A program made the translations under genes and the position numbers. From Arcobacter defluvii (lineage in GTDB: Bacteria > Campylobacterota > Campylobacteria > Campylobacterales > Arcobacteraceae): DNA of 64,000 nt. The notes beneath the pieces are model-generated. The model was not told the DNA's origin and ran no database searches. It saw only the letters and a program-made list of their open reading frames with translations. Below, in pieces: positions 44,204 through 64,000 of this stretch (within the stretch, counting starts at the first letter, position 1; each line of letters opens with the position of its first letter). Where the stretch lies: positions 1,798,001-1,862,000 of the forward strand of contig NZ_CP053835.1 of the NCBI RefSeq assembly GCF_013201725.1, given 5' to 3'.

Positions 44204-44229
44204 AATTGGTTTTAGAATATTAGATAAAT

Positions 44230-44262: not shown

Positions 44263-44267
44263 ATGTG

Positions 44268-44310: not shown

Positions 44311-44315
44311 TAAAA

Positions 44316-44483
44316 ATGAAATATTTAATTTTTTGTTTTTTAATTTTTTTATTTACAGGTTGTGCAGCAACAACAAATACTGCTCAAATTGTAGAAGAAA
44401 ATAATAAAAAATTGTTTGATAGTAATAATTGGAAACCAATAAATAAAAATCCACTTATTGAAAATGAAAAGGTGATTAAATAA
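44316..44483 (+). CDS. VirB7-like lipoprotein
   Basis: 55-aa lipoprotein with lipobox LFTGC (Cys16) and a short mature part (SNNWKPINKNP). It has an AAGGA ribosome site and its stop overlaps the virB8 start by one base (TAATG). Size and place directly before virB8 fit VirB7, which anchors the core complex to the outer membrane. Confidence 0.75.
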   Translation: MKYLIFCFLIFLFTGCAATTNTAQIVEENNKKLFDSNNWKPINKNPLIENEKVIK

Positions 44484-47245: not shown

Positions 47246-47251
47246 TTCAAA

Positions 47252-48280
47252 ATGAATGATAAAAACGAAAATAATATTTCAAGGTCTTTAAAAATACAAA
47301 CAGAATCTATTTTTGGAGATTTCTTAGCCGATGATTCAATAAATGAAATATGTGCGAATGGAGATGGTAGCATTTGGACTCAAGATTATAATGGAATTTG
47401 GGAAGAGCATAAAAAAGAAATACCTTATAAGCAAATGTTAGCTTTTGCAGTTCCAGTTGCAAGTCATAAGGAAGATACTATAAAGGCTAATAAACCTATT
47501 TTATCTGCAACTCTAAACAATGGAGAAAGAGTACAGATAGTTGTTCCTCCTGTTACAAAAAAAGATATGTTATCAATTACTATTAGAAAACCATCTAAAA
47601 CAAGATATACAATTGAAGATTATGAAAAACAAGGAATATTTAGTAATATAATACATGAAGATGATGTTCAATTAACTTTAGATGAAGTTAATTTATCTAA
47701 ATTATATAATGATAAAAAATATAAAGAATTTATTACTGAAGCAGTAAGAATTGGAAAAAATATTGTTATTGCTGGAGCAACTGGGTCGGGTAAAACTACT
47801 TTTATGAAATCTCTAATTGATTTTATTCCTTTAGAAGAAAGATTAATAACAATAGAAGATACAGAAGAAATAGTTTTTTATAAACATAAAAATCATGTAC
47901 AGTTATTTTATCCTTCTGAAGCAAAAGAAGGAGACCCTGTTACAAGTGCTATTTTATTAAAAAGTTGTCTGCGTATGAAACCTAATAGAATACTTTTAGC
48001 AGAGCTTCGAAGTGGAGAAGCTTATGATTATTTAAATGTTTTAAATTCAGGTCATGGAGGAAGTATTACTTCACTTCATGCTGGAAGTGTAAGAGAGACT
48101 TTTACACGACTTTCATTAATGATATTACAAAATCCACAAGGACAAAAATTACCCTTTGAAATTATCCAAAAAAACTTAAATGATGTAATTGATATTGTAG
48201 TACATATACAAGCACATAATGGTAAAAGAAATATAAGTGATATCTATTACAAAGGAGCTAAAGATGAAAAATATAAATAA
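47252..48280 (+). CDS. virB11: VirB11-like ATPase
   Basis: 342-aa hexameric secretion ATPase. Walker A GATGSGKT at about 174-181, an Asp box (ITIEDTEEI), Walker B-like LLAELRSGEAYDYL, and a His box (SGHGGSITSLHAGS). It works with VirB4 and VirD4. It lies 6 nt after virB10. Confidence 0.95.
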   Translation: MNDKNENNISRSLKIQTESIFGDFLADDSINEICANGDGSIWTQDYNGIWEEHKKEIPYKQMLAFAVPVASHKEDTIKANKPILSATLNNGERVQIVVPPVTKKDMLSITIRKPSKTRYTIEDYEKQGIFSNIIHEDDVQLTLDEVNLSKLYNDKKYKEFITEAVRIGKNIVIAGATGSGKTTFMKSLIDFIPLEERLITIEDTEEIVFYKHKNHVQLFYPSEAKEGDPVTSAILLKSCLRMKPNRILLAELRSGEAYDYLNVLNSGHGGSITSLHAGSVRETFTRLSLMILQNPQGQKLPFEIIQKNLNDVIDIVVHIQAHNGKRNISDIYYKGAKDEKYK

Positions 48281-50096
48281 AGGAAGTTTATTATTTTTTG
48301 TTTTCTCTGTAATATTTTTTACATATTTAACATCAGGTCTTTTAATCTTTTTTTTAAATGGATATTTTAATCTTAATTTATTCAAATTGATTAACAATAA
48401 TTATGATTTATTATTTACTTATAAAGCAATTATTAATAATTATCCAAGAATTTGGGAAGCTATATTTTATAGTGCTTCATTTTATAGTGTAGTTTTTTTT
48501 ATTTTAATACTTTTACCAAACAAAAAAAGCTTACATGGAGAAGCTCGTTTTGCAAATAGAAATGAAATAAAAAAGATGGGTCTTTTTCAAGACAAAGGTT
48601 TAGTTGTTGGAAAATTAGAAAGTGGTGAACTTCTTAAATGGAAGAGTAGTGAGTTTCTAGCTTTAGGAGCTCCTACAAGAAGTGGTAAAGGTGTTGGTAT
48701 AGTTATACCCAACTTAATGGAATGGGAAGAAAGTTGTGTTGTTTTAGATATAAAACAAGAATGTTTCGATTTTTCAAGTAAATATAGAAGAGATATCTTA
48801 GGACAAGAAGTTTATTTATTTAATCCTTTTGACTTTAGAACTCATAGATACAATCCTTTAACTTATATAGATTTAGAAAATGAAACAACAAGAGATAATG
48901 ACCTATTAGACTTTGTGAATTTACTTTATCCAGCTGATGGAGATAGTACAACAGTTTTCTTTAACCAATTAGCTCAAAATCTTTTTATAGGTCTTGCATA
49001 TCTTTATAAAGATTTAGCACTAACAAAGAATGGAAGAGAATTTTTAGAGGAACATAATTTAAATGTCGAATGGTCTATGTGTGGTTTATTAAATTTAAGT
49101 GCTGGATTTGATTTATCAATTCCAAGTGAAGAGGAAGAAGATACAAAAATTACAGGGCTTGATGATACTTTTGAATATTTAGAACATTTAGAAATAATTT
49201 CTAAACCGACTAAAGAAAAATTGAATAGCTATTTTACAATAGATAGCCAAAATACTAAATCAGGAGTTATGAGTTCTTTTAATGCTCCACTAATGATATA
49301 TAGGAATCAACCAATAACAACTGCAACAGCAACAAGTGATTTTGATTTAAGAGATTTAAGAAAGAAAAGAATGACTATTTTTATAGGTATAACACCTGAT
49401 AAACTTGCTATTGCAAGACCTATTTTAAATATCTTTTTTTCGCAATTACTTAGTGTAAATACAAAAGAGTTACCACAAAAAAATCCTGATTTAAAATATA
49501 CTTGTTTATTGTTATTAGATGAGTTCACAAGCATTGGGAATATGCCAATTCTTAAAAAAGGTGTTTCATATATTGCTAGTTTCCATTTAAGAATTTTGAT
49601 GATATTTCAAGCAATATCTCAACTTGAAGCTAGAACTCCTGATGGATATGATAAAGAGGGAGCTAATACCCTACTTCAAAATATGGGAGTAAAAATTTAT
49701 TACACACCTAACGAATTTGAAGAAGCTGAAAAAATTTCAAAAAGATTAGGAGATACAACATTTAAAGCAATTTCTAAATCTTATAATCACGGTAAGTTTT
49801 TAGAAGCTGGAAGTTCTTCTCATTCTGTTAGTGAACAAAAAAGAGCCTTAATGTTACCACAAGAACTTATGGAGTTATCACAAAGTAAAGCTTTATTAAT
49901 GATGAATTATCAAAAACCTATATTATGTAATAAAGCTTTTTATTACAATGATGAATATTTTATTAATAAATTTAGACAAGTTTCACCTTTTATGAAAAGT
50001 ATTAAAAATCCTAATCATAAAGATTGGGAAAAAATGCTTCAGTTAAATGAAACTAATATAGAGATTCCTATTCAAACACTAAATAATAATTCTTAG
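48264..50096 (+). CDS. virD4: VirD4-like coupling protein
   Basis: 610-aa coupling protein that brings the relaxase-DNA complex to the T4SS. Two N-terminal transmembrane helices (about 7-30 and 60-85), Walker A GAPTRSGKGVG at about 134-144, Walker B LLLLDEFTSIGNMP. I choose ATG 48264 after AAAGGAG; an upstream ATG at 48237 has no such site. The start overlaps virB11 by 17 nt. It is followed by two hairpins and a terminator. Confidence 0.93.
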   Translation: MKNINKGSLLFFVFSVIFFTYLTSGLLIFFLNGYFNLNLFKLINNNYDLLFTYKAIINNYPRIWEAIFYSASFYSVVFFILILLPNKKSLHGEARFANRNEIKKMGLFQDKGLVVGKLESGELLKWKSSEFLALGAPTRSGKGVGIVIPNLMEWEESCVVLDIKQECFDFSSKYRRDILGQEVYLFNPFDFRTHRYNPLTYIDLENETTRDNDLLDFVNLLYPADGDSTTVFFNQLAQNLFIGLAYLYKDLALTKNGREFLEEHNLNVEWSMCGLLNLSAGFDLSIPSEEEEDTKITGLDDTFEYLEHLEIISKPTKEKLNSYFTIDSQNTKSGVMSSFNAPLMIYRNQPITTATATSDFDLRDLRKKRMTIFIGITPDKLAIARPILNIFFSQLLSVNTKELPQKNPDLKYTCLLLLDEFTSIGNMPILKKGVSYIASFHLRILMIFQAISQLEARTPDGYDKEGANTLLQNMGVKIYYTPNEFEEAEKISKRLGDTTFKAISKSYNHGKFLEAGSSSHSVSEQKRALMLPQELMELSQSKALLMMNYQKPILCNKAFYYNDEYFINKFRQVSPFMKSIKNPNHKDWEKMLQLNETNIEIPIQTLNNNS

Positions 50097-50189
50097 ACCA
50101 ATTAAAATTGGTCCAGGTATTATTTAAAATTAAAAAAATTCAGAACTTATAAATTTAATCTATTTTAATAGATCAAATATTTATAAGTT
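50096..50189 (+). ncRNA. stem-loops following virD4
   Basis: First GACCAATT/AATTGGTC (50096-50113), overlapping the virD4 stop. Then a long stem AACTTATAAAT (50144-50154) with 50179-50189, enclosing ATCTATT/AATAGAT. The second resembles the hairpin at 42075-42116 in sequence (CTTATAAA, ATAGATCAA, TTATAAG). Confidence 0.45.
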
Positions 50190-50280
50190 TTACAATATAC
50201 GAATTTATAATACTTTACTAGAAAAACAAAATATTAAAAAATTAAACTTTTTAAAATATTAAAAGAAATAGAAATAATAT

Positions 50281-50318
50281 AAAAAAAGGTGGGACTCTTT
50301 TGAGTTTCACCTTTTTTT
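50281..50318 (+). terminator. intrinsic terminator after virD4
   Basis: AAAAAAAGGTG / CACCTTTTTTT with an inner ACTC/GAGT pair. The gap 50097-50459 otherwise contains only the hairpins described and a doubtful 15-codon ORF (GTG 50350-50397) preceded by AGGAGG. Confidence 0.85.
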
Positions 50319-50459
50319 ATATCCAAATTTTATTTAGGAGGTGTGAAATGTGAAATTAAATTTTAAAACAGAAAAGAAAAAATTGGTGAAGCTTTAAAAA
50401 GTTTTAGATTATAGAATATTTTCGATGATTAGTCGATGATAAACAAGAAGGACAATAAA

Positions 50460-51146
50460 ATGGCATTTATAGAATTAACAAAAGAAGAAAAACCAAAATT
50501 AGCAGTTCAAGTGAATAATTCTTTAAAATATAAAGATGCAGCTGGAAATTTACAAGATAGACAAAAAGTAACAGCTTTAATTAATATCGTAAAAGAAGCT
50601 GGACAAGTTGCAAATATGAATAAAGGAGCTGTTACGGTTTCTTTAAATACAGAAAAAGGTTATAAAAACTATTTTGTAAATAAAACAGATAAAGATGATA
50701 TTGCTTTAGTACCAATGGATAAAACTTTACAAGAGGATAAAGACAATTTTATTTACTTCAATAAAAAAGTAGATATAAATAATCCTGATAAATATTTTTA
50801 TAATATGAGTAAAGCTGGTAATGCTGAACAAGTTGTTGAAAGTATAAAAGTTACTGCAACTGATAAATCAGCTTACTTAGGTGCAAGAGTTACTCTAAAA
50901 AATGACGAAATTAAAGATTTATTAATTGATAAAGAATTTGATACTAATCAAAGACATACAGCAATAATTGGAAAAAATAAACTTGAAATTATATCAAATG
51001 GAGAGCTTCAAGCTAGAAGAGAATCAAAACAATCTCAAGAGCAAGATAAAAGTAAAGAAGCTCCAACCAAAGATACTGAAGATAAAAAAAAAGCATTTAA
51101 ACCACAAAATAAATCAAAAGTAAAAGAACAAGATATAGAGAGATAA
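50460..51146 (+). CDS. hypothetical protein of the conjugative element
   Basis: 228-aa hydrophilic protein. No family recognised. Residues about 8-185 alternate strands and helices (AFIELTKEEKPKLAVQVNNS; LGARVTLKNDEIKDLLI), and residues about 186-228 are a Lys/Glu/Gln-rich disordered tail. No signal peptide or membrane part, so cytoplasmic. Start at ATG 50460 (AAGGAC upstream) is better than 50436. It is first in a run leading to the TOPRIM gene and may help DNA handling; this is inferred from position only. Confidence 0.5.
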   Translation: MAFIELTKEEKPKLAVQVNNSLKYKDAAGNLQDRQKVTALINIVKEAGQVANMNKGAVTVSLNTEKGYKNYFVNKTDKDDIALVPMDKTLQEDKDNFIYFNKKVDINNPDKYFYNMSKAGNAEQVVESIKVTATDKSAYLGARVTLKNDEIKDLLIDKEFDTNQRHTAIIGKNKLEIISNGELQARRESKQSQEQDKSKEAPTKDTEDKKKAFKPQNKSKVKEQDIER

Positions 51147-51170
51147 TCTCTATATCATAAAGGCTTACAA

Positions 51171-51356
51171 ATGTATAAAAAAGAAGATTATTCTAATTAT
51201 ACAGGGTATTCAGATTCTGACCCTACTCCTAGCCCTAAGCTTTTTGGAGAAAAATCTGAAACTAAAGAACGAACAAACACCCCTCCTCCTCCAGTTAAAC
51301 AAAGAACTTTTAAACCTAAACAGAAAAATAAAAATCGTGGAAATTTTAGTAGATAA
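51171..51356 (+). CDS. small Pro/Lys-rich hypothetical protein
   Basis: 61-aa protein, disordered, with PTPSPK and TPPPPVKQ stretches and a basic tail. Its stop codon overlaps the start of the TOPRIM gene by one base (TAATG). No family recognised. Confidence 0.5.
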   Translation: MYKKEDYSNYTGYSDSDPTPSPKLFGEKSETKERTNTPPPPVKQRTFKPKQKNKNRGNFSR

Positions 51357-52417
51357 TGGCTTTAAATGCAGATAAAGAACAAGTGATGAATGCAATTTCA
51401 TCACTTGGCTACAAAGTATTTAAAAATGGTAGTTTCCATTGGAATAGTTCAGATACTCCTGATATGAAAATTTGTGATGATGGAAGTATTCATTGCTGGA
51501 CTACTTCACCATTTAAAAAAATTTTAAAAACAACTATTGGTGAAAAGGTTATAAAAACAGAAAATTATGGGAATCATGGTGATTTAATAGCTTTTATACA
51601 ACTCACAAATACTAATATGGATTTTCCTGAAGCTCAAGAAGAAGCTTACAAATTATTAAATTTAGAACTACCATCTTTAAATGCTTATGAAGGACATTAT
51701 TCTAACACAATAAAAAAAGATGGTTTTATTAGTAAAGAGTTTATGAAAGAGTTTGAAAAGCAAAGAGTAGAAAACTTTGATAGGTACAAAGAGTTATTAA
51801 AAGAAGCCTTACCTTCTTTAAATTTTGATAAACAAAAAAAAATAGCATTAATGTACCAAATTGGCTATATAAAACAATCAGATAGATTATGTATGCCCAT
51901 TCTTGATGACTATGGAAATATCTTAACCCTTTGGAAATATAACAAAAATCCTAAACCTTTTTTTAATACAGATGGCAAAGAAATTAAATTATCTAAAGTT
52001 TTATTTTCTAAAGGTAGAAAAAGAACGACTTTTAATCTTGCAGATTTAAAAGAGTATCGAAAAGATAAATCAATTGAAGTATATCTATGTGGGGGAGAAA
52101 AAGATGTTTTAAATATGGTTGGTAATGGTTATAGAGCTGTTACTTTAGGAGCTGAAAATAATGATATTCCAAAAGAACATTTGGAACTATTTAAAGATTT
52201 AAAAATCATAGTCGCTTATGACTATGATAAAGCTGGGCAAGAGGGAACAGCTAAGATGTTGGAACAATTAAAAAATGTTGCAAAAAGTGTAAAATCTTGG
52301 AACTGGGAAGATGAAGCAAAAAAACATAAATTGCAACTTTTTAAAGGTTTCGATATGACTGATTTATTAGTATTTATTAGTGAAAAGATTAGAAAAAATA
52401 AGGAAATAAAAATATGA
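51356..52417 (+). CDS. TOPRIM-domain primase-like protein
   Basis: 353-aa protein. The N-terminal part (about 1-110) resembles a zinc-finger-like primase leader (DDGSIHCW, NHGDLIAFIQ, FPEAQEEAYKLL). A TOPRIM domain lies at about 240-310 with the metal-binding Glu in LCGGEKDVLNM and DxD in VAYDYDKAGQEG. Such proteins prime DNA synthesis in recipient cells or support replication of mobile elements. It overlaps the next gene by 4 nt. Confidence 0.75.
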   Translation: MALNADKEQVMNAISSLGYKVFKNGSFHWNSSDTPDMKICDDGSIHCWTTSPFKKILKTTIGEKVIKTENYGNHGDLIAFIQLTNTNMDFPEAQEEAYKLLNLELPSLNAYEGHYSNTIKKDGFISKEFMKEFEKQRVENFDRYKELLKEALPSLNFDKQKKIALMYQIGYIKQSDRLCMPILDDYGNILTLWKYNKNPKPFFNTDGKEIKLSKVLFSKGRKRTTFNLADLKEYRKDKSIEVYLCGGEKDVLNMVGNGYRAVTLGAENNDIPKEHLELFKDLKIIVAYDYDKAGQEGTAKMLEQLKNVAKSVKSWNWEDEAKKHKLQLFKGFDMTDLLVFISEKIRKNKEIKI

Positions 52418-52626
52418 TTAAAAATATTGAATTATCTTTAAGTCTTAGGAGTTTAGAAATTCTAATAGAAGCATTAGTGGGAGAGATATCTTTCTTATCT
52501 TTTCAACAGATTGGGGAAGACAAAAAAAATATAATAAATGAATACAATGAAGTATTAAATGAGTTAAAAAATTTAGAAAAAAATCAATTAAAGGAAAAAC
52601 TATGGCAACAATTGCAGGAAGTGTAA
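52414..52626 (+). CDS. small hypothetical protein
   Basis: 70-aa, helical and acidic, no family recognised. It starts by ATGA overlap with the TOPRIM gene and ends 25 nt inside the adhesin gene, so translation of the three is coupled. Possibly a helper for the adhesin or primase. Confidence 0.5.
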   Translation: MIKNIELSLSLRSLEILIEALVGEISFLSFQQIGEDKKNIINEYNEVLNELKNLEKNQLKEKLWQQLQEV

Positions 52627-55600
52627 AAAGCTTATCAAGTGGAATTTTTCATGCAAAAGATGAAAATGGTAATATTAGAGTTTTACAAGAAGGTGATACA
52701 ATCTATGAGAATGACACGGTTTATGGTGACAATGGAAATTCTTCATCATCAAAAATAGAAATTCTTCTTTCTGGAAATGATGTTATTGTTTTAAGTGAAG
52801 GTCAAAAACAATTAATAGATTCTTCTTTAATTGAAACAGCTTTTGGAACAGAAGAGTTGTTTTTTACAAGAGAAGGTTTAGATTTAAAAGCTGATGAACA
52901 TAATTCAAATGCTGATGTTGATATAACGAATGAAGCGACAGCAGAAGGGCAAGAAACAGTTGAAGATAAAGATAAAAAAGAAGATGAATTTTTAGAGAGA
53001 GATGCTGCTGAAACAAATGTTGTTAGTAACCTAAGAACACAATCCTTTACACCAATTGAAGTATTTAAAAAAGATGTTGAAACAAAAAAAATAGTTACAA
53101 ATACAGATAATCTTGAATCTAATGAGGAGCAAATTCTTGAACCTGAACCAGTTCCAACACCTGAACCTGAACCAGTTCCAACACCTGAACCTGAACCAGT
53201 TCCAACACCTGAACCTGAACCAGTTCCAACACCTGAACCTGAACCAGTTCCAACACCTGAACCTTATGTTACAAAGATAGTATTATCTGCTCCACATGAA
53301 GTAATTGAAGGTGATGAAATAATTGTTACTGCAACAGTTGATAAAGCTCCTAAAACTGATTTATATGTACTTTTAGATAATGAGCAGCTTATAACTATTA
53401 AAGCTGGTGAACTTTCAGGAAGTGTTACAACTACACTTTATACAGATGATAGATATATTCAAGGTGATAGAACTTATGATATTTCAATTTCAAATGCAGA
53501 AGGTGGAGGATATGAAAAACTTGATACAAGTTCTAAATTAGACATTATTGTCAAAGATGATGCAGATGTTACAAAGATAGTATTATCTGCTCCACATGAA
53601 GTAATTGAAGGTGATGAAATAATTGTTACTGCAACAGTTGATAAAGCTCCTAAAACTGATTTATATGTACTTTTAGATAATGAGCAGCTTATAACTATTA
53701 AAGCTGGTGAACTTTCAGGAAGTGTTACAACTACACTTTATACAGATGATAGATATATTCAAGGTGATAGAACTTATGATATTTCAATTTCAAATGCAGA
53801 AGGTGGAGGATATGAAAAACTTGATACAAGTTCTAAATTAGACATTATTGTCAAAGATGATGCAGATGTTACAAAGATAGTATTATCTGCTCCACATGAA
53901 GTAATTGAAGGTGATGAAATAATTGTTACTGCAACAGTTGATAAAGCTCCTAAAACTGATTTATATGTACTTTTAGATAATGAGCAGCTTATAACTATTA
54001 AAGCTGGTGAACTTTCAGGAAGTGTTACAACTACACTTTATACAGATGATAGATATATTCAAGGTGATAGAACTTATGATATTTCAATTTCAAATGCAGA
54101 AGGTGGAGGATATGAAAAACTTGATACAAGTTCTAAATTAGACATTATTGTCAAAGATGATGCAGATGTTACAAAGATAGTATTATCTGCTCCACATGAA
54201 GTAATTGAAGGTGATGAAATAATTGTTACTGCAACAGTTGATAAAGCTCCTAAAACTGATTTATATGTACTTTTAGATAATGAGCAGCTTATAACTATTA
54301 AAGCTGGTGAACTTTCAGGAAGTGTTACAACTACACTTTATACAGATGATAGATATATTCAAGGTGATAGAACTTACGATATTTCAATTTCAAATGCAGA
54401 AGGTGGAGGATATGAAAAACTTGATACAAGTTCTAAATTAGACATTATTGTCAAAGATGATGCAGATGTTACAAAGATAGTATTATCTGCTCCACATGAA
54501 GTAATTGAAGGTGATGAAATAATTGTTACTGCAACAGTTGATAAAGCTCCTAAAACTGATTTATATGTACTTTTAGATAATGAGCAGCTTATAACTATTA
54601 AAGCTGGTGAACTTTCAGGAAGTGTTACAACTACACTTTATACAGATGATAGATATATTCAAGGTGATAGAACTTACGATATTTCAATTTCAAATGCAGA
54701 AGGTGGAGGATATGAAAAACTTGATACAAGTTCTAAATTAGACATTATTGTCAAAGATGATGCAGATGTTACAACTGTATCTATTAATAAAATTGAAGTT
54801 CCTGAAGAAATAACTATATATAGAGCTAATTCTACGACTGAAAATACAGGGAAAAGTAATTTAGTATATCTTGAAAATAGAACTGATAATTTACTACTTC
54901 AAGGTTATATTAAAGATGATGAATTGTATCAAATAGAAATGAAAGATTTTTATATTAAAAATAACGCTTGGGGTAAAGATGAACAAGGTTCTTTTTTAGA
55001 ATTTGTATTAACAATTCCTGAACCAATTACAAATGATTTAATCTTTTTAGCAAATAATTTACTTAAACCTAAAAATAGTTTTGAAGAAAATAGTAACAAT
55101 ACAGAATTTATTACTATTAAAGCTGGAGAAACAACGGGAATAGGTAAATATTATATTACAGAGTTTAAGGATTTACCTTATACGGATGAACCTAGAGAGT
55201 ATGGAACAGGAGCAATTTTTGCAGAAGATGCTTCTTCTTCTAATTATTCTTCTTTTTTTAGTATTGGTGGTAATGATTTTAAATTAAACATTAATGGAGA
55301 TTCTACTATTGATACAACAACAATTGATATTGCAGAGGTTATAGATAACATTGATGGAACAATGACTTTAAAAATAGAGTTATCCAATCCCCCTATTGAG
55401 AATGGTAGAATTGGAGGAAGTGGTAGCGTATCTTTTTTTGTAAATGGAGAACATTATAGAATACCTTTTGAGCATGGTGTACAAGAATATTATTTAACAA
55501 TAGAAAAAAAATTTGATACAAATGGTTCTATAAAAATTACACATTTTAATGCAGATGCATATTTTGAAGATATAAGTATTCCTGATAAAATGGGAGATTC

Positions 55601-56198
55601 TAGTGTTGCTGTTATTATAAAACAAGGGTATGATACTTATGAAATTGAAACTTCAAATCCCCCTGATGGAAATAAATACAACTTTGTTAATACATTTCCT
55701 ATTGCAACAATAGAAAAAACTTCTATTGATTATAGCAATAATGTAACTAAAGAAATTTATGAAGTTAATTTAGATAAGAATGGAAAAGGTACTTTAGTTA
55801 TAAATACAGATAGTACACAAAAATCAACTAATTTAAAAATTTTAGAAATTGGTGGAAATTTTGAAAAAGTTGATTTTGTAAATAATGATATTAATTTAAG
55901 TAATTTAGAAAATATTATTACAGATAATAATATAAACTTGAGAAATGAGAAAATAGATAATGTTAATATTACTTTAGAAGATGTTTTAAAACTTGCTCCA
56001 CAAAAAGAACTTACAATTAATTGTGATAATTTTGACAATTTAAATTTTAAAAATACTATTTCTAATGGAACGGAAAATAATTGGAGTAAAGCAACTGGTT
56101 CAGGTATTGATAGTGGATATGATATTTATACAAATAGTGGAGATTTAAGTATTCAAGTAAAAGTTGAGCAACCTATTTCAGATGGAATAACTAACTAA
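52602..56198 (+). CDS. LapA-like repeat adhesin carried by the element
   Basis: 1198-aa acidic protein. Residues 1-90 resemble a LapA-type retention module (MATIAGSVKSLSSGIFHAKD, LQEGDTIYENDTVYGDN, GNDVIVLSEGQ), which plugs the outer-membrane channel during secretion. After an acidic linker come about five PEPVPT repeats (180-221) and five 100-aa Ig-like/Calx-beta-like repeats (223-722) that are identical in protein sequence. The C-terminal part (723-1198) has two more repeat-like modules and an end resembling the C-terminus of type I secreted adhesins (LTINCDNFDNLNF, GYDIYTNSG). No canonical TAAG-type LapG site was found. No transporter is next to it, so export would need a system encoded elsewhere. 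ATG 52602 has AAGGAA in front. Confidence 0.75.
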   Translation: MATIAGSVKSLSSGIFHAKDENGNIRVLQEGDTIYENDTVYGDNGNSSSSKIEILLSGNDVIVLSEGQKQLIDSSLIETAFGTEELFFTREGLDLKADEHNSNADVDITNEATAEGQETVEDKDKKEDEFLERDAAETNVVSNLRTQSFTPIEVFKKDVETKKIVTNTDNLESNEEQILEPEPVPTPEPEPVPTPEPEPVPTPEPEPVPTPEPEPVPTPEPYVTKIVLSAPHEVIEGDEIIVTATVDKAPKTDLYVLLDNEQLITIKAGELSGSVTTTLYTDDRYIQGDRTYDISISNAEGGGYEKLDTSSKLDIIVKDDADVTKIVLSAPHEVIEGDEIIVTATVDKAPKTDLYVLLDNEQLITIKAGELSGSVTTTLYTDDRYIQGDRTYDISISNAEGGGYEKLDTSSKLDIIVKDDADVTKIVLSAPHEVIEGDEIIVTATVDKAPKTDLYVLLDNEQLITIKAGELSGSVTTTLYTDDRYIQGDRTYDISISNAEGGGYEKLDTSSKLDIIVKDDADVTKIVLSAPHEVIEGDEIIVTATVDKAPKTDLYVLLDNEQLITIKAGELSGSVTTTLYTDDRYIQGDRTYDISISNAEGGGYEKLDTSSKLDIIVKDDADVTKIVLSAPHEVIEGDEIIVTATVDKAPKTDLYVLLDNEQLITIKAGELSGSVTTTLYTDDRYIQGDRTYDISISNAEGGGYEKLDTSSKLDIIVKDDADVTTVSINKIEVPEEITIYRANSTTENTGKSNLVYLENRTDNLLLQGYIKDDELYQIEMKDFYIKNNAWGKDEQGSFLEFVLTIPEPITNDLIFLANNLLKPKNSFEENSNNTEFITIKAGETTGIGKYYITEFKDLPYTDEPREYGTGAIFAEDASSSNYSSFFSIGGNDFKLNINGDSTIDTTTIDIAEVIDNIDGTMTLKIELSNPPIENGRIGGSGSVSFFVNGEHYRIPFEHGVQEYYLTIEKKFDTNGSIKITHFNADAYFEDISIPDKMGDSSVAVIIKQGYDTYEIETSNPPDGNKYNFVNTFPIATIEKTSIDYSNNVTKEIYEVNLDKNGKGTLVINTDSTQKSTNLKILEIGGNFEKVDFVNNDINLSNLENIITDNNINLRNEKIDNVNITLEDVLKLAPQKELTINCDNFDNLNFKNTISNGTENNWSKATGSGIDSGYDIYTNSGDLSIQVKVEQPISDGITN
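53139..53264 (+). repeat. 24-bp tandem repeat encoding PEPVPT
   Basis: Five copies of a 24-bp unit (GAACCTGAACCAGTTCCAAC plus ACCT) and a partial sixth, coding a rigid Pro/Glu linker in the adhesin. Copy number may vary by slippage. Confidence 0.9.
53268..54767 (+). repeat. five 300-bp tandem repeats in the adhesin
   Basis: Five consecutive 300-bp units with no length change. By eye the only difference is a silent T to C (acttatgat / acttacgat), present in units 4 and 5. The near identity suggests a recent expansion or ongoing homogenisation. Confidence 0.9.
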
Positions 56199-56716
56199 TG
56201 TTAAATATTTTTATTTTTTTATATAAAAAAATTTTCTTTTTGTTTAAAAAAGAAAAATACTCTCATAAATGGAGAAAAGATTCAGCTCATAAAATTCTAA
56301 AAAGATTAGATACTTTAAATGAAGCCCAAATATTTGTATATTTAAGAAAAATTGACCCTTTTACAATGGAAGAACTTATCTTAACTGCATTAGAAAAAAG
56401 AGAAGATATTAAAATAGAAAGAAATACAAAATATACAGGTGATGGTGGTGTTGATGGAAGATTTTATCTTCTAAATAAAAATAGAAAACCTTTAAAATGT
56501 ATTATTCAGGCAAAAAGGTATAGTTCTTTAATTAATCCAAAGCATTTAAAAGAATTTGCTAATCAAATTAATCAAGAAAATGCCTATTTAGGTTTTTTTA
56601 TTCATACTGGGAGAACCAGTAAGAACTCTTTTGCTTATGCAAAAAGTATAAATAATTTAAGAATCATATCAGGACAAAGATTAATTAAATTAATCAAATT
56701 TGGTGCAATAGACTAA
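56198..56716 (+). CDS. Mrr-like restriction endonuclease-fold protein
   Basis: 172-aa protein: a hydrophobic or basic start (about 1-18, possibly membrane-linked) and a PD-(D/E)xK-type domain with GDGGVDGRFYLL and CIIQAKRYSS, which provide the Asp and Gln-x-Lys catalytic residues of the Mrr_cat family. The start overlaps the adhesin stop (TAATG). It may degrade modified or foreign DNA, or be an exclusion function of the element. Confidence 0.75.
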   Translation: MLNIFIFLYKKIFFLFKKEKYSHKWRKDSAHKILKRLDTLNEAQIFVYLRKIDPFTMEELILTALEKREDIKIERNTKYTGDGGVDGRFYLLNKNRKPLKCIIQAKRYSSLINPKHLKEFANQINQENAYLGFFIHTGRTSKNSFAYAKSINNLRIISGQRLIKLIKFGAID

Positions 56717-56900
56717 AGCCAAAAACAATATTTTATTCCTTTCGGTATAGCTTAATTTTAGTCGCTATTAGCAAGGTATTTTTTTTGATAAAGTATATCT
56801 CTATCTCTAAAAATTTCCAACCTTATAGCCCCTTAGGGGGCTTATTAATTTGAAACACATCTCAATATTATAATTCAATATCATAATAAAAGGAAAATAT
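56717..56900. other. intergenic with GC-rich hairpin
   Basis: 184 nt without a gene. AGCCCC-TTA-GGGGGCT (56827-56843) is a GC-rich hairpin, unusual for this AT-rich element, and probably a terminator; a TATAAT-like box near 56866-56872 could start the TrbM block. Confidence 0.5.
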
Positions 56901-57578
56901 ATGACAAAAATTATTGTTGGAGCAATTAGTGCTTCTTTTTTAACATTAAATTTAATTGCAGCAGAAAATGATTTTAAAGCAGAACTATTAACTGGTGATA
57001 CAAAACTAGCTTGCGAAGCTATTTTATGTTTAAGTTCAAGTACAAGACCTAGTGAATGTAATCCCTCTTTAAATCACTACTTTAGTTTAAAAGCAAAGAA
57101 GTGGAAGAATACTGTTAAGTTACGAAGAAATTTTTTAAAACTTTGTCCTGATGGTGGAGATGAAATTGAAGATTTAGTATATAAAGATTATAGAGATAAT
57201 TTTTTACCTAATGCAGCTGACCCTAGAGAATGTACAGCAGAATATTTAAACAAACAATTGGAGAACAAAGAAGAATTTTCTTATTTAGAAAATAAATTTT
57301 CTTTAAGTTATAGAGTTAATCCAAATATGCCAGCACCATGTATTACTTTATTTAAGCATCCATATACAGCTATTTCAAAACCAAATTATATTTGTACAGG
57401 AGAATTTTATACTTCTTTAGAATGGAAATTAAATGCTAAATTAATACGAATTTCTTATAAAGATTATACATATCTACCAAATTATGAGAAATATGAAATC
57501 TATATACCTGATGGCGAAGGTGGATATACAAATTATTATAAAAAAGTTCCTTTTTCAAAAACTTGCTGGATGGATTAG
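56901..57578 (+). CDS. TrbM/KikA-type conjugal transfer protein
   Basis: 225-aa exported Cys-rich protein with a signal peptide (about 1-20). LLTGDTKLACEAILCLSSST and PSECNPSLNHYFSLKAKK are signature for TrbM/KikA. Ten or so cysteines suggest disulphide bonds in the periplasm. TrbM helps mating pair formation. It is directly followed by the VirB1 gene. Confidence 0.85.
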   Translation: MTKIIVGAISASFLTLNLIAAENDFKAELLTGDTKLACEAILCLSSSTRPSECNPSLNHYFSLKAKKWKNTVKLRRNFLKLCPDGGDEIEDLVYKDYRDNFLPNAADPRECTAEYLNKQLENKEEFSYLENKFSLSYRVNPNMPAPCITLFKHPYTAISKPNYICTGEFYTSLEWKLNAKLIRISYKDYTYLPNYEKYEIYIPDGEGGYTNYYKKVPFSKTCWMD

Positions 57579-58067
57579 ATGTTAGAAACTTTATTTATTG
57601 AAGAATGTAAAAATATAAATGTTCGAACTCCTGTAGTAAGTATGATTATAAAAGAAGAAAGTTCAAAAAATCCGTATTCAGTGAATGTAAATAAAAATGG
57701 AAAAAGTTTAATTTCATTTTCTCCAAAAACAAAAAATGAAGCTAAAAAAATCGCTCAAAATTACATAAATGCTGGATTTAGTGTAGATGTTGGATATATG
57801 CAACTTAATAGTGATAATTTTAAGCTGCTAAATATAACTTTAGATGATGCTTTAGACCCTTGCAAAAATTTATATTTTGCTTCAACCGTATTCTATAATT
57901 TTTACAAAGATACTAATAAAAAAGATAGCTACATCGATAGAGTTAAAAAAAGTCTTAGTGCATATAATACAGGTTCTTATGAATTAGGTTTTACAAATGG
58001 ATATGTAGCCAAATATGATAAATATTTAGAAGAAAAATATAAACCTATGTTAATAAAAAATATTTAG
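57579..58067 (+). CDS. virB1: VirB1-like lytic transglycosylase
   Basis: 162-aa SLT-domain protein with catalytic Glu27 (IIKEESSKNPYSV), VDVGYMQLNSDNF and LSAYNTGSYE. It locally opens peptidoglycan for T4SS assembly. No signal peptide is visible, as in some short VirB1 proteins; it may be translated from the preceding gene's end (adjacent stop and start). Confidence 0.85.
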   Translation: MLETLFIEECKNINVRTPVVSMIIKEESSKNPYSVNVNKNGKSLISFSPKTKNEAKKIAQNYINAGFSVDVGYMQLNSDNFKLLNITLDDALDPCKNLYFASTVFYNFYKDTNKKDSYIDRVKKSLSAYNTGSYELGFTNGYVAKYDKYLEEKYKPMLIKNI

Positions 58068-58101
58068 GAGTAAATATGGAAAAAAATAAGGAATTAGAAA
58101 G

Positions 58102-60276
58102 ATGAAATTATTTATAGCAGAAAAACCTGAACTTGCAAAAGCAATAACAACAGGATTAAATGGAACAGTTCAAAGAGAAGATGGTTATTTTAAAGTTGGT
58201 GATAATCTAGTTACTTGGGCTTATGGACATATTTTAGGTCTTGCAATGCCTGAAGATTATGATGAAAAATTCAGAAGTTGGAATTTAAATGATTTACCAC
58301 TACAAATAGATACAAATAACTTCAAATATTTACCTCTTGATAATTCAAAAAAACAATTAAAGTTAATTGTTGATTTGATAAATAGTAAAGATATAAAAAC
58401 TATTGTAAATGCTGGGGATAATGATGAAGAAGGTCAAATACTTGTAGATGAAATATTAGCCTATGCAGATAATAAAAAACCTGTTGAAAGAGTTTTAATC
58501 TCTGATTTAACAGAAAAAGGTGTAAAAAAAGCTCTTCAAGATATAAAATCAAATGATGATTTTAAAGGATTATCTGATAGTGGATTTTCTCGTTCTCAAG
58601 CTGATTGGCTAGTAGGAATAAATTTTACTAGAGCTTACTCAAAATTGGCTCAACTTCAAGGTTATCAAGGTGTTTTAAGTGTTGGAAGAGTTCAAACTCC
58701 TATTTTAGGCTTAATTGTTGCAAGAGATAAAGAACATGAAAGTCATCAAAGTAGCTTTTATTATTCTATTAAAGGGACTTTTAATACTAATAATATACTT
58801 TTTAATGCAAATTTAAAACTAGATGAAAAAATTACAACTGAAGATGAAGCAAATAAAATTTTAAATGATTGTAAAGGGAGTTTAGGAACTGTTTTAAAAG
58901 CTATAAATGAGCCAAAGAGAACAAATCCTCCATTACCATACAATTTACTTGATTTACAAGCAGAATGCTCTAAAAAGTTTAGCTATAAACCTGATAAAAC
59001 TTTAGAAATAACACAAAGTTTAAGAGAGAAGCATAAACTTATTACTTATAACCGTTCTGATTGTAGTTATCTTCCTGAAAATTTATTTGAAGAAGCTCCA
59101 GCAACTTTAGAAAGTATAAAAGCAAATTTATTAGATTTCAAAGATTTTATAGATCATGCAGATAGTTCTATAAAATCTCTTGCATGGAATACGGCAAATA
59201 CAACAGCTCATCATGGAATTATTCCAACAGATAAAAGAGTAAAAATTGAAGATTTATCAAAAGATGAATTAAATGTTTATACTTTAATTGCTAGAAAATT
59301 TGTAGCTCAATTTTATGAAGCAAAAGAATATATCCATACTCAAATAGAAATATCAGTAAAAGATAATATCTTTACTACAAGTGCAAAAAGAACAACAAAA
59401 CAAGGTTTTGAAGTGCTGTTTAAAGGTGAGATTGAAGATGAAGAAAATGAAGAGTTAGAAAATAATACTAACTTAGAAAACATATCTCCAAATGCTCCAG
59501 TAAATTGTGAAGATATAACAGTATCAAAAGAGAAGACTAAACCAAAACCATATTACACTGTGTCATCACTTCTAAAAGATTTAACAAGTGTAGCTAAGTA
59601 TATAAAAAACCCTGAAATTAAAAAGCTTTTAATTGAAAAAGATAAAGACAAAAAAGGTGAAAATGGTGGAATTGGTACACCAGCTACAAGGTCGGCACAT
59701 ATTAAAAATCTTTTTGATAAGGGTTATATAGTAGAAGATAAAAAAGCTATTAAATCAACTACTACAGGAAGAAAATTAATAGAGTTATCTCCAGCAACTT
59801 TATCAAGTCCTGATATGACTGCTCTATGGTATGAACAACAAAAAGATATTCAAAATGGAACATTATCAAAAGAAGAGTTTTTAAACAATGTAGAAATTTA
59901 TATCAATGATGAAATAAATAGAATTAAAAACTCTAATAAATTTGAATCTCTTGCAAATGAAAATTCTATTAAATGCCCTACTTGTGAAACTGGAGTTTTA
60001 AGAAGATTAAAAAGTAATAAAGATAGTAAATTCTTTTGGGGTTGTAGCAATTATCAAGATGGTTGTAAAACTTCATTTTCTGATGATAAAGGTAAACCTT
60101 TAATCATTAAGCCAAGTGGTCATAAATATAAATGTCCTGATTGTAAAGATGGAGATTTAATCAAAAGAAAAACTATAAAAGATAAAAAAACATCTTATTG
60201 GTGGGGTTGTTCAAATTATTCAAAAGGTTGTAAATATACAACTTTTGATGATAAAGGTAAACCTAAAAAGAAATAA
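58102..60276 (+). CDS. topB: topoisomerase III (type IA) of the conjugative element
   Basis: 724-aa enzyme. N-terminal TOPRIM domain (KLFIAEKPELAKAI, DNDEEGQILVDEI), active-site Tyr at about 316 (LITYNRSDCSYLP), GTPATRSAHI in the late core, and two C-terminal zinc ribbons (CPTCETGVLRR..., WGCSNY repeated) from about 625. Elements of this type use it for decatenation or to help transfer. The start is ATG 58102; a nine-codon ORF just upstream (58076-58105) is likely incidental. Confidence 0.93.
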   Translation: MKLFIAEKPELAKAITTGLNGTVQREDGYFKVGDNLVTWAYGHILGLAMPEDYDEKFRSWNLNDLPLQIDTNNFKYLPLDNSKKQLKLIVDLINSKDIKTIVNAGDNDEEGQILVDEILAYADNKKPVERVLISDLTEKGVKKALQDIKSNDDFKGLSDSGFSRSQADWLVGINFTRAYSKLAQLQGYQGVLSVGRVQTPILGLIVARDKEHESHQSSFYYSIKGTFNTNNILFNANLKLDEKITTEDEANKILNDCKGSLGTVLKAINEPKRTNPPLPYNLLDLQAECSKKFSYKPDKTLEITQSLREKHKLITYNRSDCSYLPENLFEEAPATLESIKANLLDFKDFIDHADSSIKSLAWNTANTTAHHGIIPTDKRVKIEDLSKDELNVYTLIARKFVAQFYEAKEYIHTQIEISVKDNIFTTSAKRTTKQGFEVLFKGEIEDEENEELENNTNLENISPNAPVNCEDITVSKEKTKPKPYYTVSSLLKDLTSVAKYIKNPEIKKLLIEKDKDKKGENGGIGTPATRSAHIKNLFDKGYIVEDKKAIKSTTTGRKLIELSPATLSSPDMTALWYEQQKDIQNGTLSKEEFLNNVEIYINDEINRIKNSNKFESLANENSIKCPTCETGVLRRLKSNKDSKFFWGCSNYQDGCKTSFSDDKGKPLIIKPSGHKYKCPDCKDGDLIKRKTIKDKKTSYWWGCSNYSKGCKYTTFDDKGKPKKK

Positions 60277-60350
60277 ATCAGAAGAATTATTAAGAAAAAA
60301 ATGTAATTCCTTTGTTTATCAAATAGAAAACAATTAATAAACTGGCATAA

Positions 60351-60392
60351 ATATAGTACCAAGATTTTATCCTGGTACTATATTTTTTTTTG
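60351..60392 (+). terminator. intrinsic terminator after the topoisomerase gene
   Basis: Stem ATATAGTACCA / TGGTACTATAT with 11 pairs, followed by a run of Ts. Confidence 0.9.
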
Positions 60393-60399
60393 GCTCATT

Positions 60400-60511
60400 T
60401 TTAATTAATAGTATTATCTAATATTAATTAATATTATTTAGTATTTATTAATATTTAAAGATATTTTTAAGCATTAATTAACATTAAAAATTATATTGTT
60501 AGGAAACTAAA
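60400..60511 (+). promoter_or_regulatory. AT-rich repeat region before the methyltransferase/helicase gene
   Basis: 112 nt rich in ATTAAT-type repeats, containing the 22-base sequence shared with 44268-44289 (here 60424-60445). A ribosome site (AGGAAA) precedes ATG 60512. Confidence 0.5.
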
Positions 60512-63500
60512 ATGGCAAAAGCAAAAAAGAAAAAAGATAGTGAACTTTATAAAGGTTTATCTTTATTTGATTTTGTATCAAATGAGATAGAGAATAAATT
60601 AATAGATTTAAAAGAAAGGGTAGAAGATGGAAAGAATACAAGCGGAAGTGAACTGGGATTATTTGGAAGCGAATTTAACACAAGAACTGTATCGGGAGAT
60701 AGAGGACGAATTGGGGAACAGTGGAACAATAATGACTCCTTACAACTTGGAAATACTGGAGAGATGGATAAGGGAATTTCCAATAATCAAGACATTAACA
60801 GAATTAACAGGACTCTCAACAGCGATGAAATTACAAGGACAGATGGAGCTGGAAATATTGGAAAGCAATATAGCCAACAAGATGAGAGCGAATGGAATAA
60901 CGGATATGGAGATACTAGAAGAGAGAGGGATAGACCCGTTCAAATTCTTCAAAGAAATAATGATTTAAAAATTGATTTTAAATCAAATGATGAAGTTATT
61001 ATTACAGGTACGAAAGATAAATATAATAAAAATATAGAAGCTATAAAGCTTTTAAATATTCTTCAAAAAGAAAAAAGATATGCCACTCCTGAAGAACAAT
61101 TAACATTAAATAATTATTCGGGATGGGGTGGTATTCCTCAAGCTTTTGACAAAAATTCATCTTCTTGGTCTAAAGAATATGTAGAACTAAAAAATATACT
61201 TACAGAAGATGAATACAAAAGTGCTAAAACTTCAACGATGGATAGTCATTACACTCCTAAAATAGTCATAGATACTATTTATAATGCTTTGGATAAATTT
61301 GGATTTAATAAATCAAAAGAAACTAAAGAAATACTAGAACCAAGTGCTGGTAATGGTGCCTTTCTAAGTTTTTCTAAAAATCATTTTAATAATTTTAATT
61401 TTGATTGTGTTGAACTAGATAAAACATCAGCTAATTTATTGAGGAAGTTATATCCTAACCAAAAAATTTATAATGTTGGTTTTGAAATTTTAGAATCTAA
61501 AAAGAAATATGATGCAGTAATTGGTAATCCTCCTTATGGACAAAAGAAGATATTTGATATGAATAATAATGATATATCAATGTTAAGTGTTCATAACTAT
61601 TTTATGGCTAGAGCTATAAAAGAATTAAAAGATGATGGTATAGTAGCTTTTGTAACTTCTAGCTATTTCTTAGATTCTAAAGATTCAACATTAAGGGAAC
61701 AATTAAGCAATGAAGCTTCATTTGTTGGTGCTATTAGACTTCCGAATAATACATTTAAAAATAAAGCTGGTACAGAAGTAACGACTGATATAGTTTTCTT
61801 TAAAAAAGGTATAGATAAAGATATACACAAAGATTTTAAAGAAACAACAATATCAACGCATCATACAAAAGATATTGAAAAACCTATTTTTATAAATAAA
61901 TATTTTGAGGAAAATCCTTCAAATATTTTAGGAAAAATGGATTTTGTAATGAGTGGAATAGGAGAAACTACTCAATGTTTAGATATAGGTCTAAATATGG
62001 AAGAGGAACTTAAAAAAGCTATTTCAAGACTTCCTGAAAATATTTATAAATATCATAATGTTAAAGAACAAGCACAATATTTTGAATTAAAAAATCCTGA
62101 TTCACATTTATTAGATTTAAAGAAAAACAATTATTTTTTAAAAGATGATGAGATTTATATAAAAATCAATAATTTAGATACGGATGATGGAAAAGTTTTA
62201 TCGTATAAAAAACCTATATTAAACCAAAATGAAAAAAATAAAATACTTAAATTTATAAATATTAGAGATACTTTAAATTACATTATTGAACTTGAACAAG
62301 CTCCTATCGAAGATACTAATCCAAAACTTGTTGAACAAAGAGCATTACTAAATAAATATTATGATGAATTTGTAAAAAAAGAGGGTTATTTACATAAATC
62401 TACAAATAAAAAAGCTTTTGCAAATGATGTTGAAGCTCAAAAAATACTAGCTTTAGAATTAGAATATTCAGCTGGAGTTAGTAAAGAAGTTGCTAAAAAG
62501 AATAATATTGAACCTGTTGAAGCTAGTGCAAAAAAAGCTGATATTTTTGAAAGAAGAACTATATCGCCTTTTGTAAAAATAGAAGTAAACAATCCAAAAG
62601 AAGCTTTAATCTCTAGTTTAAATCAGTTTGGGAAAATTGATTTAAACTATATGGAAAATGAATTAAATATATCAAAAGATGTAATCATAAAAGATTTACT
62701 AGAAAAGAAATTAATATTCATAGACCACACAACTATCAAAAATGACGATGTTAGTTATGTTCTTGCAGAAAAATATCTATCAGGAAATGTTAAAAGTAAA
62801 TTCCAAGAAGTTCAAGAGTTGGTTAAAGAGCATAGAGAATTAGAGAGTAATTTAAACAGTTTAAATGAAGTTTTACCAAAAGATTTAAAAGCAGTTGAAA
62901 TTAGTGTTTCTTTAGGTACTTCTTGGATACCAAAAGAATATTATCATCAATTTTTTGAAAGTCATTATAAAACAAATAGGGATAATTGGAATTTATTACA
63001 CAATAAAACTTCGGGTGAGTGGACATTTGACGGGAACGGGAATTATTTACCAAGAGATATAGTTTCAAAATATGGTACTTCTAGGGTTGGAGTATTTAGA
63101 ATTGCTGAGAATGGTTTAAAAAATAGTCCTATTAAAGTATTTGATACTTACTTAGATGAAGAGGGCAAACAAAAACAAAAAATTAATCAAGAAGAAACAG
63201 CTCTTGCAAATTCTAAATTACAAATTTTAAAAAATGACTTTTCTGAATGGATTTATAAAGACATAGATAGAAGAACTGATTTAGAAAAAATTTATAATGA
63301 AACATTTAACACAGATGTAGAGCCTAACTATAATGGTTCTCATTTAACATTCCCTAATCTTAACAATTCAATTAAATTAAGAGTTCATCAAAAAAATGCG
63401 ATTTGGAGAGCAATACAGGATAAAAATGTATTATTCGACCATCAGGTGGGTGCTGGAAAAACTTTAGTTACGATTTGTTCTATTATGGAACAAAAAAGAA

Positions 63501-64000
63501 TGGGGTTAGTTAATAAACCTATTATAACTGTACCAAACCATTTGATTGGTCAATGGGAAAAAGAGTTTTACAAAGCATATCCTAACGCAAATTTATTAGC
63601 AACAAATAAAGAAGATTTAGAAAAAAATAATAGAGAACAATTTTTTGGAAGAATTGCTACAAATAATTATGATGCAGTCATAATGTCACATAGTCAATTT
63701 AAACTTTTACCAGCTCCTTATGAAATTGTAAAAGAGCAAATAAATGAGGATATTTCTATTTTAGAAGATATGCTTGAAACTCAAAAAGAAATAGCCCAAA
63801 GAGATGGTAAATCAACTAGAGGTTTTTCAATTAAAGCTACAGAAGGAAAAATAAGTAATTTTAAAGCTCGATTAGATAATTTATTGCAAGAAAATAAGAA
63901 ATCAAAGAGTATTGATTTTGGAGATTTAGGAGTGGATTTATTAGCAGTTGATGAAGCACATACTTATAAAAATTTATTAATTACAACTTCTATGGGAGAT
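60512..64000 (+). CDS. giant adenine methyltransferase-SNF2-like helicase (DarB-like), 3' end beyond window
   Basis: Frame open from ATG 60512 to the window edge (1163 codons visible). A basic/helical start (1-38), a low-complexity Asn/Gly/Arg/Asp-rich stretch (about 39-152), then an N6-adenine methyltransferase with the SAM motif EPSAGNGAF (276-284) and catalytic NPPY (339-342). A helicase follows with Walker A DHQVGAGKT (976-984) and DEAH (1147-1150). The layout matches large methyltransferase-helicase proteins of phages and conjugative elements (such as phage P1 DarB), some of which protect incoming DNA from restriction. Motif positions confirm one frame throughout. The low-complexity part coincides with a second ORF in another frame (60627-60968). 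Confidence 0.9.
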   Translation, partial: MAKAKKKKDSELYKGLSLFDFVSNEIENKLIDLKERVEDGKNTSGSELGLFGSEFNTRTVSGDRGRIGEQWNNNDSLQLGNTGEMDKGISNNQDINRINRTLNSDEITRTDGAGNIGKQYSQQDESEWNNGYGDTRRERDRPVQILQRNNDLKIDFKSNDEVIITGTKDKYNKNIEAIKLLNILQKEKRYATPEEQLTLNNYSGWGGIPQAFDKNSSSWSKEYVELKNILTEDEYKSAKTSTMDSHYTPKIVIDTIYNALDKFGFNKSKETKEILEPSAGNGAFLSFSKNHFNNFNFDCVELDKTSANLLRKLYPNQKIYNVGFEILESKKKYDAVIGNPPYGQKKIFDMNNNDISMLSVHNYFMARAIKELKDDGIVAFVTSSYFLDSKDSTLREQLSNEASFVGAIRLPNNTFKNKAGTEVTTDIVFFKKGIDKDIHKDFKETTISTHHTKDIEKPIFINKYFEENPSNILGKMDFVMSGIGETTQCLDIGLNMEEELKKAISRLPENIYKYHNVKEQAQYFELKNPDSHLLDLKKNNYFLKDDEIYIKINNLDTDDGKVLSYKKPILNQNEKNKILKFINIRDTLNYIIELEQAPIEDTNPKLVEQRALLNKYYDEFVKKEGYLHKSTNKKAFANDVEAQKILALELEYSAGVSKEVAKKNNIEPVEASAKKADIFERRTISPFVKIEVNNPKEALISSLNQFGKIDLNYMENELNISKDVIIKDLLEKKLIFIDHTTIKNDDVSYVLAEKYLSGNVKSKFQEVQELVKEHRELESNLNSLNEVLPKDLKAVEISVSLGTSWIPKEYYHQFFESHYKTNRDNWNLLHNKTSGEWTFDGNGNYLPRDIVSKYGTSRVGVFRIAENGLKNSPIKVFDTYLDEEGKQKQKINQEETALANSKLQILKNDFSEWIYKDIDRRTDLEKIYNETFNTDVEPNYNGSHLTFPNLNNSIKLRVHQKNAIWRAIQDKNVLFDHQVGAGKTLVTICSIMEQKRMGLVNKPIITVPNHLIGQWEKEFYKAYPNANLLATNKEDLEKNNREQFFGRIATNNYDAVIMSHSQFKLLPAPYEIVKEQINEDISILEDMLETQKEIAQRDGKSTRGFSIKATEGKISNFKARLDNLLQENKKSKSIDFGDLGVDLLAVDEAHTYKNLLITTSMGD
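60627..60968 (+). CDS. 113-aa ORF overprinted in the methyltransferase/helicase gene
   Basis: Entirely inside the larger gene, in the +1 frame. AAAGG lies 8 nt before ATG 60627. The protein looks like an ordinary helical acidic protein (VNWDYLEANLTQELYREIED, LEILERWIREFPIIKTLTEL), whereas the same DNA in the main frame yields low-complexity sequence with rare codons (AGC, TCG, CGA, CCC). GC content counted by eye is about 37-42% per line here and about 20% on either side. Function unknown. It could be an independent gene, or the outcome of a GC-rich insert. Confidence 0.6.
   Translation: MERIQAEVNWDYLEANLTQELYREIEDELGNSGTIMTPYNLEILERWIREFPIIKTLTELTGLSTAMKLQGQMELEILESNIANKMRANGITDMEILEERGIDPFKFFKEIMI

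Follow-up and report, generated by a model that had tools for sequence, protein, structure and literature searches.

An old and overlooked gene, probably nested in the +1 frame of a DarB-like methyltransferase-helicase gene

Significance

A 113-codon reading frame within a large methyltransferase-helicase gene of Arcobacter defluvii is very probably a genuine nested (overprinted) dual-coding gene, at once real, old, and overlooked, as judged from comparative sequence analysis. In the arrangement that we propose, a single mRNA would encode both a DarB-like methylase-helicase and a small +1-frame protein, the latter being translated by internal initiation at its own Shine-Dalgarno site. To our knowledge, convincing long-conserved same-strand overprinted genes in bacteria are few. 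This one sits on many conjugative plasmids and was missed, or the large gene truncated, in nearly all annotations examined; it directs attention to a protein, so far unstudied, that is carried by plasmids of Campylobacter, Pseudomonas, Salmonella, and others. Its location may have a chemical reason, namely that hydrophobic-poor linkers lack +1 stops. It also offers a natural experiment: the host frame died in some lineages while the nested gene survived, so that base composition can show what double coding costs.

Results

The source genome comprises 3.02 Mb in a single contig, and coordinates given below refer to the window, the whole stretch of 64,000 nucleotides that was analyzed. The initial annotation, made from the letters of the window, described a large gene open in one frame from 60512; the frame is indeed uninterrupted from the ATG at 60512 to the window end and continues past it in the genome, for a total of 1897 codons (L130 513-6206). 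Pfam scores are 46.9 bits for Eco57I, 32.0 bits for ResIII, and 30.2 bits for SNF2-rel_dom, and PADLOC returns methyltransferase-type and BrxH/PglX-type matches; the gene thus has the adenine methyltransferase domain followed by an SNF2-type helicase that marks DarB-like proteins. A +1 ORF of 113 codons with its own ribosome site, also described at that stage, was recovered exactly. The features are as follows:

60512..64000, extending past the window, + strand: large gene, N6-adenine methyltransferase plus SNF2-type helicase (DarB-like dyad), from ORF and Pfam
60554..60574, + strand: main-frame motif GLSLFDF, directly 5' of the nested gene, a pattern picked after inspection
60616..60620, + strand: Shine-Dalgarno-like AAGGG of the nested gene, read from the sequence
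60626..60967, + strand: overlap, main-frame residues 39-152, a hydrophilic low-complexity linker ahead of the methyltransferase domain
60627..60968, + strand: probable nested +1-frame gene, 113 codons, a member of what we call family A, from ORF, homologues, and selection
61403..61723, + strand: Eco57I-type methylase domain (Pfam, residues 298-404)
63371..63973, + strand: N-terminal part of the ResIII/SNF2 helicase (Pfam, residues 954-1154)

At least 20 kb of the element (44001-64000) is present in two identical, inverted chromosomal copies, the second at G000:C1:1242155-1262154, and a 1198-aa ORF upstream on the same element (52602-56198) contains near-identical repeats of ~100 residues. By eye, the ORFs 5' of the large gene resemble genes for type IV secretion, for a lytic transglycosylase, and for a topoisomerase; on a C. 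fetus plasmid, genes annotated as topoisomerase, transglycosylase, and toprim stand before the copy.

Among the window's 34 host ORFs of at least 200 aa, 60627-60968 is the only nested same-strand ORF of at least 80 aa. The stretch is also crossed on the minus strand, by ORFs of 78 and 70 aa, as had been remarked. The GC rise first counted by eye is borne out in 120-base windows: GC is 0.33-0.43 over the ORF (windows starting 60580-60820), compared with 0.12-0.23 before it (starting 60340-60520) and 0.18-0.22 after it (starting 60940-61000); in windows past 61000 it climbs to 0.32, within ordinary main-frame sequence. Main-frame codon use over the overlap is atypical, as proposed (mean log RSCU -0.016; all 129 training chunks are higher, with a minimum of 0.179), but the small frame, which had been called ordinary-looking, is even more so (mean log RSCU -0.363). 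Codon use as a guide to the older frame was dropped, both frames being atypical and the small one more strongly. AlphaFold2, run on the small protein with a two-row alignment, gives an all-helical model with a pLDDT of 46.8, which is unfit for a fold search. Searches of Pfam, NCBIfam, PHROGs, and the PDB gave no above-cut-off match for family A, and PADLOC gave none for the window's small protein.

A +1 stop requires a main-frame codon ending in TA or TG, and hence Leu, Ile, Val, or Met. Such codons are scarce in hydrophilic linkers, which rarely hold +1 stops; openness alone therefore proves little, and only conservation counts. For the main protein at hand, an open +1 run of at least 114 codons arose in 13 of 20000 synonymous resamplings with genome codons and in 85 of 20000 when the protein's own codons were permuted.

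A tblastn search with the 113-aa sequence found 218 plasmid records at E ≤0.1 (212 Campylobacter, 6 Helicobacter), with identity below 60% throughout and 80% query coverage in 6 records; a gene annotated as SNF2-related or helicase overlies most of the 60 matches listed, of the 218. Counting the source genome, the small ORF was present in 3 of the 104 genomes searched in the family, in 20 of 398 in the order (C. coli query), and in 42 of 397 in the phylum (21-row profile). Outside the phylum, a Burkholderia member matches the family A profile with E 1.4e-10 in a one-sequence search, and tblastn with this member yields 66 plasmid records, chiefly Pseudomonas, Salmonella, Burkholderia, and Xanthomonas. 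Viral contigs scanned with four queries contained no family A relatives. The relatives are ~100-270 aa long and share the pattern Il.RW(a)...P...L...Q..mEl.iL...a...r.qG.tdmEiL; in every intact locus examined, the small ORF is in the +1 frame of the large one. Since two phyla, Campylobacterota and Pseudomonadota, share it in the same frame of the same gene, family A is evidently old rather than young, which speaks against the earlier suggestion of a newer or imported gene.

Searching with the large gene instead returned 26 loci in 22 of 396 genomes, 18 of them with an open family A ORF (one runs off the locus end) and the remaining 8 with another +1 ORF, no +1 ORF, or only a gene fragment. Large-gene frames in genus g63 span 1,697-3,542 codons. 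The accessible part of the OrfQ literature puts the length of OrfQ at 2,800 codons or more in H. pylori and above 4,000 in H. cetorum (PMC2731543), and from these lengths we infer that g63 is Helicobacter with OrfQ.

Annotations of the locus differ. In one prophage record of H. bizzozeronii, it is the +1 ORF that is annotated as the gene; five plasmid records of Pseudomonas and Xanthomonas (L166, L168, L169, L170, L175) show the small gene and begin the large gene only after it; and other plasmid records annotate the large gene alone and omit the small one. The same five records have a zeta-toxin family gene annotated 5' of the nested gene.

The start of the small gene is conserved, as is its open frame, in homologues with both frames intact. 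A Shine-Dalgarno-like 4-mer lies no more than 18 bases upstream of 31 of 32 family A starts, whereas among all ATGs of these loci 466 of 3611 have one; the lone miss is a misplaced start in L171, whose ATG at 2507 is preceded by GAGGAG. Copies without the main frame (L114, L125, L117) retain both their own ATG and an SD-like site. On the main-frame side, 17 of 19 loci have an LF- or FDF-type motif 5' of the small gene (the Enterobacter and Salmonella loci lack it), the pattern having been defined post hoc, after the sequences had been inspected. Its variants are GLSLFDF, RSLFDFI, QLSFDF, and QLGFDF (window 60554-60574; counterparts in L041, L107, L136, L166, L173), and the motif resembles the sliding-clamp binding motif QLxLF. 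Because this motif precedes the small gene, a start of the large gene upstream of the small one is favored.

The two frames have had different fates. An intact small core is combined with a main frame open over that core in 49 distinct core sequences (51 listed minus the partial L058 and L109; many are close relatives); "open" here concerns the core alone, the main frame being interrupted elsewhere, shortened, or startless in L045, L046, L050, L051, L053, L066, L100-L103, L105, L108, and L110. In 7 further distinct sequences (L009/L040, L038/L114, L049, L057/L117, L106, L112, L115), the small core is intact and the main frame has stops, L112 and L115 being N-terminally shortened. The small frame is broken in four genomes (G115, G553, G550, G455); the main frame is also broken in three of these, and the main gene was not found in G455. 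A small ORF interrupted beside an intact main frame, which the initial annotation had named as counting against a second gene, occurs in 0 of the loci scanned.

Solo copies as the ancestral state were considered and rejected: the five solo copies lie scattered in the tree, which forces at least three changes. Because of this scatter, the solo copies look, tentatively, like repeated losses of the large gene, in a midpoint-rooted tree with long branches and weak deep forks. In L040 (Aliarcobacter STC_123), similar ORFs of 117 and 118 aa (4147-4500 and 5354-5710) flank the solo small gene.

In a +1 overlap, the main third position is the small second position and the main first position is the small wobble position. 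Substitutions at main positions 1/2/3 were counted in five sets:

Campylobacter-plasmid-type (n=7), per position: overlap.292/.149/.074; downstream.102/.051/.296
Helicobacter-type (n=4), per position: overlap.086/.051/.027; downstream.045/.033/.076
Pseudomonadota set 1 (n=3), counts: overlap 32/8/0; downstream 34/30/194
Pseudomonadota set 2 (n=3), counts: overlap 121/75/42; downstream 164/147/570
Pseudomonadota set 3 (n=2), counts: overlap 52/21/16; downstream 88/50/239

The pattern is inverted in all five sets, the main third position being the least variable in the overlap and the most variable downstream; the synonymous constraint that the initial annotation had proposed to look for is thus present. 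L046 was removed from the first set because an IS element cuts its large gene and its downstream part is partly non-homologous; with L046 as an eighth member the values are.286/.142/.073 in the overlap and.179/.117/.348 downstream. The seven-sequence count also leaves out L047 and L052 (near-copies) and L049, L050, L051, and L053 (main frame broken). Contingency tests on the counts containing L046 are extreme; pairwise counts are not independent, and the argument therefore rests on the inversion in five of five sets. Between the window and L040, whose main frame has 5 stops, the small-frame dN/dS is 0.071. Other copies whose main frame is dead or broken are less constrained: omega is 0.456 for G401/G480 and 0.158-0.436 for three pairs among G392, G206, and G146, with few changes. 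Together, these patterns indicate that the nested protein is under purifying selection and that its frame is conserved more strongly than the main frame over the shared stretch, a further point against a recent import.

The GC rise is a trace of double coding. All 13 of the 13 loci in which both frames are alive have a small-frame GC3 of 0.37-0.58, which exceeds the local GC3 (0.10-0.38). Loci with a dead or missing main frame have values of 0.27 (L040), 0.14 (L117), 0.16 (L115), 0.20 (L106), and 0.16 (L114), close to the local GC3 of 0.13-0.23, with GC1 and GC2 remaining similar. L118 and L119, in which the main frame is broken and little changed, still have small-frame GC3 of 0.39 and 0.38. 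For the Pseudomonadota, of higher GC, the opposite sign is predicted and found: main third-position GC is 0.32-0.38 in the overlap compared with 0.45-0.83 downstream (nine loci, read as small-frame GC2; L173 left out). As small-frame GC3 departs from background only with the main frame alive, the GC bump is a footprint of double coding, not of import. The same contrast between live and dead frames, taken with the 49 sequences whose main frame stays open over the core, indicates that the host frame is also under selection.

Other methyltransferase-helicase linkers hold +1 ORFs as well. A different one, family B, is found in the genes of G050, G071, and G315 (112, 105, and 126 codons stop to stop; loci L122, L123, L159), with pairwise E of 1e-6 to 1e-14, whereas the main frame over the same span does no better than 0.33; loci L121 and L157 (Campylobacterota) make up family C. 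These linker-ORF E-values are single-comparison values, with 28 pairs compared. Profile comparison of families A and B with hhalign (B with two rows) showed no similarity (probability 0.04%). One family B member found nothing in 248 genomes or in plasmids, and another found nothing in phages. G042 and G277 have a common further +1 ORF (E 4.8e-7) with no similarity in the main frame. On Listeria plasmids the nested +1 ORF (L135 3471-3812; L174 2501-2845) is TnpV (PF14198), at 28.7 bits with a cut-off of 27; one record annotates it as TnpV, and 95 of the 97 records found with it are Listeria. The nested ORFs of Anaerococcus and S. agalactiae are related (E 1e-31; main frame E 2e-5), and TnpV scores below the cut-off were obtained for Anaerococcus (25.1 bits), S. 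agalactiae (16.2), and G277 (18.1). A TnpV search of the window genome gave no match, but 14 control genomes were equally silent, so that this search carries no weight. Family A as a distant TnpV or a distant family B was rejected, as the window's small protein has no TnpV hit and the profiles of A and B are dissimilar.

The linkers of G255 (at least 371 codons; L156 2-1114) and G132 (at least 402; L158 2-1207) hold very long +1 open frames, whose similarity to each other is not significant (E 0.18). Chance appears to account for the +1 ORFs of GC-rich G387 (L160) and for those outside the linker in GC-rich Burkholderia. No +1 ORF of at least 80 codons was seen in the scanned stretch of the methyltransferase-helicases of G449, G147, and an Acinetobacter plasmid, and an Enterococcus plasmid has ORFs only across the ends of the large frame.

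Discussion

Four other explanations of the locus were weighed. The initial annotation had itself offered an inserted GC-rich linker open by chance, and a hydrophilic linker without Leu, Ile, Val, or Met codons does ease openness in +1 without there being a gene. Several methyltransferase-helicases have +1 ORFs in their linkers, the very long ones of G255 and G132 being dissimilar, and GC-rich hosts often have open +1 or +2 frames of at least 80 codons (eight +1 and five +2 in Burkholderia L136). Against this, the rarity of such openness for this particular main protein under resampling, the inverted codon-position rates indicating selection on the +1 protein, and the conserved start and SD site make chance very improbable. 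A small gene that is real by itself, with the large gene beginning downstream and its frame over the small one open by accident, would match the NCBI annotation of the five Pseudomonas and Xanthomonas plasmids; we consider this improbable too, if slightly less so, given the 49 distinct sequences with the main frame open over the small core, the LF/FDF-type motif upstream in most loci, and a small-frame GC3 kept far from background solely where the main frame is alive.

The shared strand and +1 register would also suit entry into the small ORF by +1 frameshifting from the large gene, with no start of its own. The near-universal ATG and SD-like site, both retained in L114, L125, and L117 where the main frame is gone, leave this reading little room. 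A conserved nucleic-acid element, such as an RNA fold or a recombination or transfer site, might be looked for on mobile elements; no direct evidence of one was found, the constraint has triplet periodicity in the +1 frame, and the protein similarity crosses phyla and GC contents, so that this is the least credible of the four. The preferred reading remains two overlapping proteins, as initially proposed, now strongly supported by conservation and selection.

The small frame would lie where it does since hydrophilic linkers stay open in +1. We lean, by a modest degree, toward a wider view in which DarB-like linkers are recurrent seats, or "nurseries," of nested +1 genes on mobile elements, with products serving the element's establishment, because hydrophobic-poor linkers cannot easily hold +1 stops. 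The sets concerned are family A; family B (G050, G071, G315); and the TnpV-like ORFs (Listeria, Anaerococcus/Streptococcus, perhaps G042/G277); outside family A, the evidence consists of pairwise conservation among two or three sequences each.

As to function, the co-made protein may act with or beside the methylase-helicase while the conjugative element becomes established in its new host cell; a partner in anti-restriction or in regulation would be one example. By eye, the solo copies have as neighbors a gene resembling type III DNA methylases (L117), one resembling hsdM of type I systems (L115), a transposase together with a relaxase-like gene (L114), and genes resembling HipA and Abi (L125). 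These neighbors and the DarB likeness of the large gene would fit a role in establishment in a restricting host; DarB is described as involved in antirestriction in the available part of PMC5512222. That the small protein is made together with the DarB-like methyltransferase-helicase and assists it, in establishment or against restriction, is a tentative proposal, to which we give somewhat less than even weight.

At title and abstract level, with subscription papers mostly uncovered, we found no earlier description of the nested gene, and an earlier report may exist. A C. jejuni Ribo-seq study numbers its ORFs on strain NCTC11168 (PMC11955535); "SNF2" is absent from its text, and no mention of the nested gene was seen in the portion available. 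DarB-like methylase-helicase dyads, for which an N-terminal LPD36 domain has been named, occur in phage P1, conjugative plasmids, and ICEs (PMC5512222), and OrfQ is the methyltransferase-helicase of H. pylori TnPZ/ICEHptfs (PMC2731543, PMC4234485). The large gene is like these, as the accessible parts of the sources present them, in the order of methyltransferase and SNF2-type helicase and in its location on a conjugative element; those parts of PMC5512222, PMC2731543, and PMC4234485 do not mention a nested gene. TnpV (PF14198) is nested in +1 in the Listeria plasmid methyltransferase-helicase but does not match the window's small protein, and on a Heyndrickxia plasmid it is a stand-alone gene, unlike the nested Listeria one. 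The genes pop and ano of E. coli O157:H7 are reportedly overlapping genes as well; they likewise place two proteins on one stretch of DNA, but in antisense and in E. coli, whereas the pair proposed here lies on the same strand, in the +1 frame, and in two phyla.
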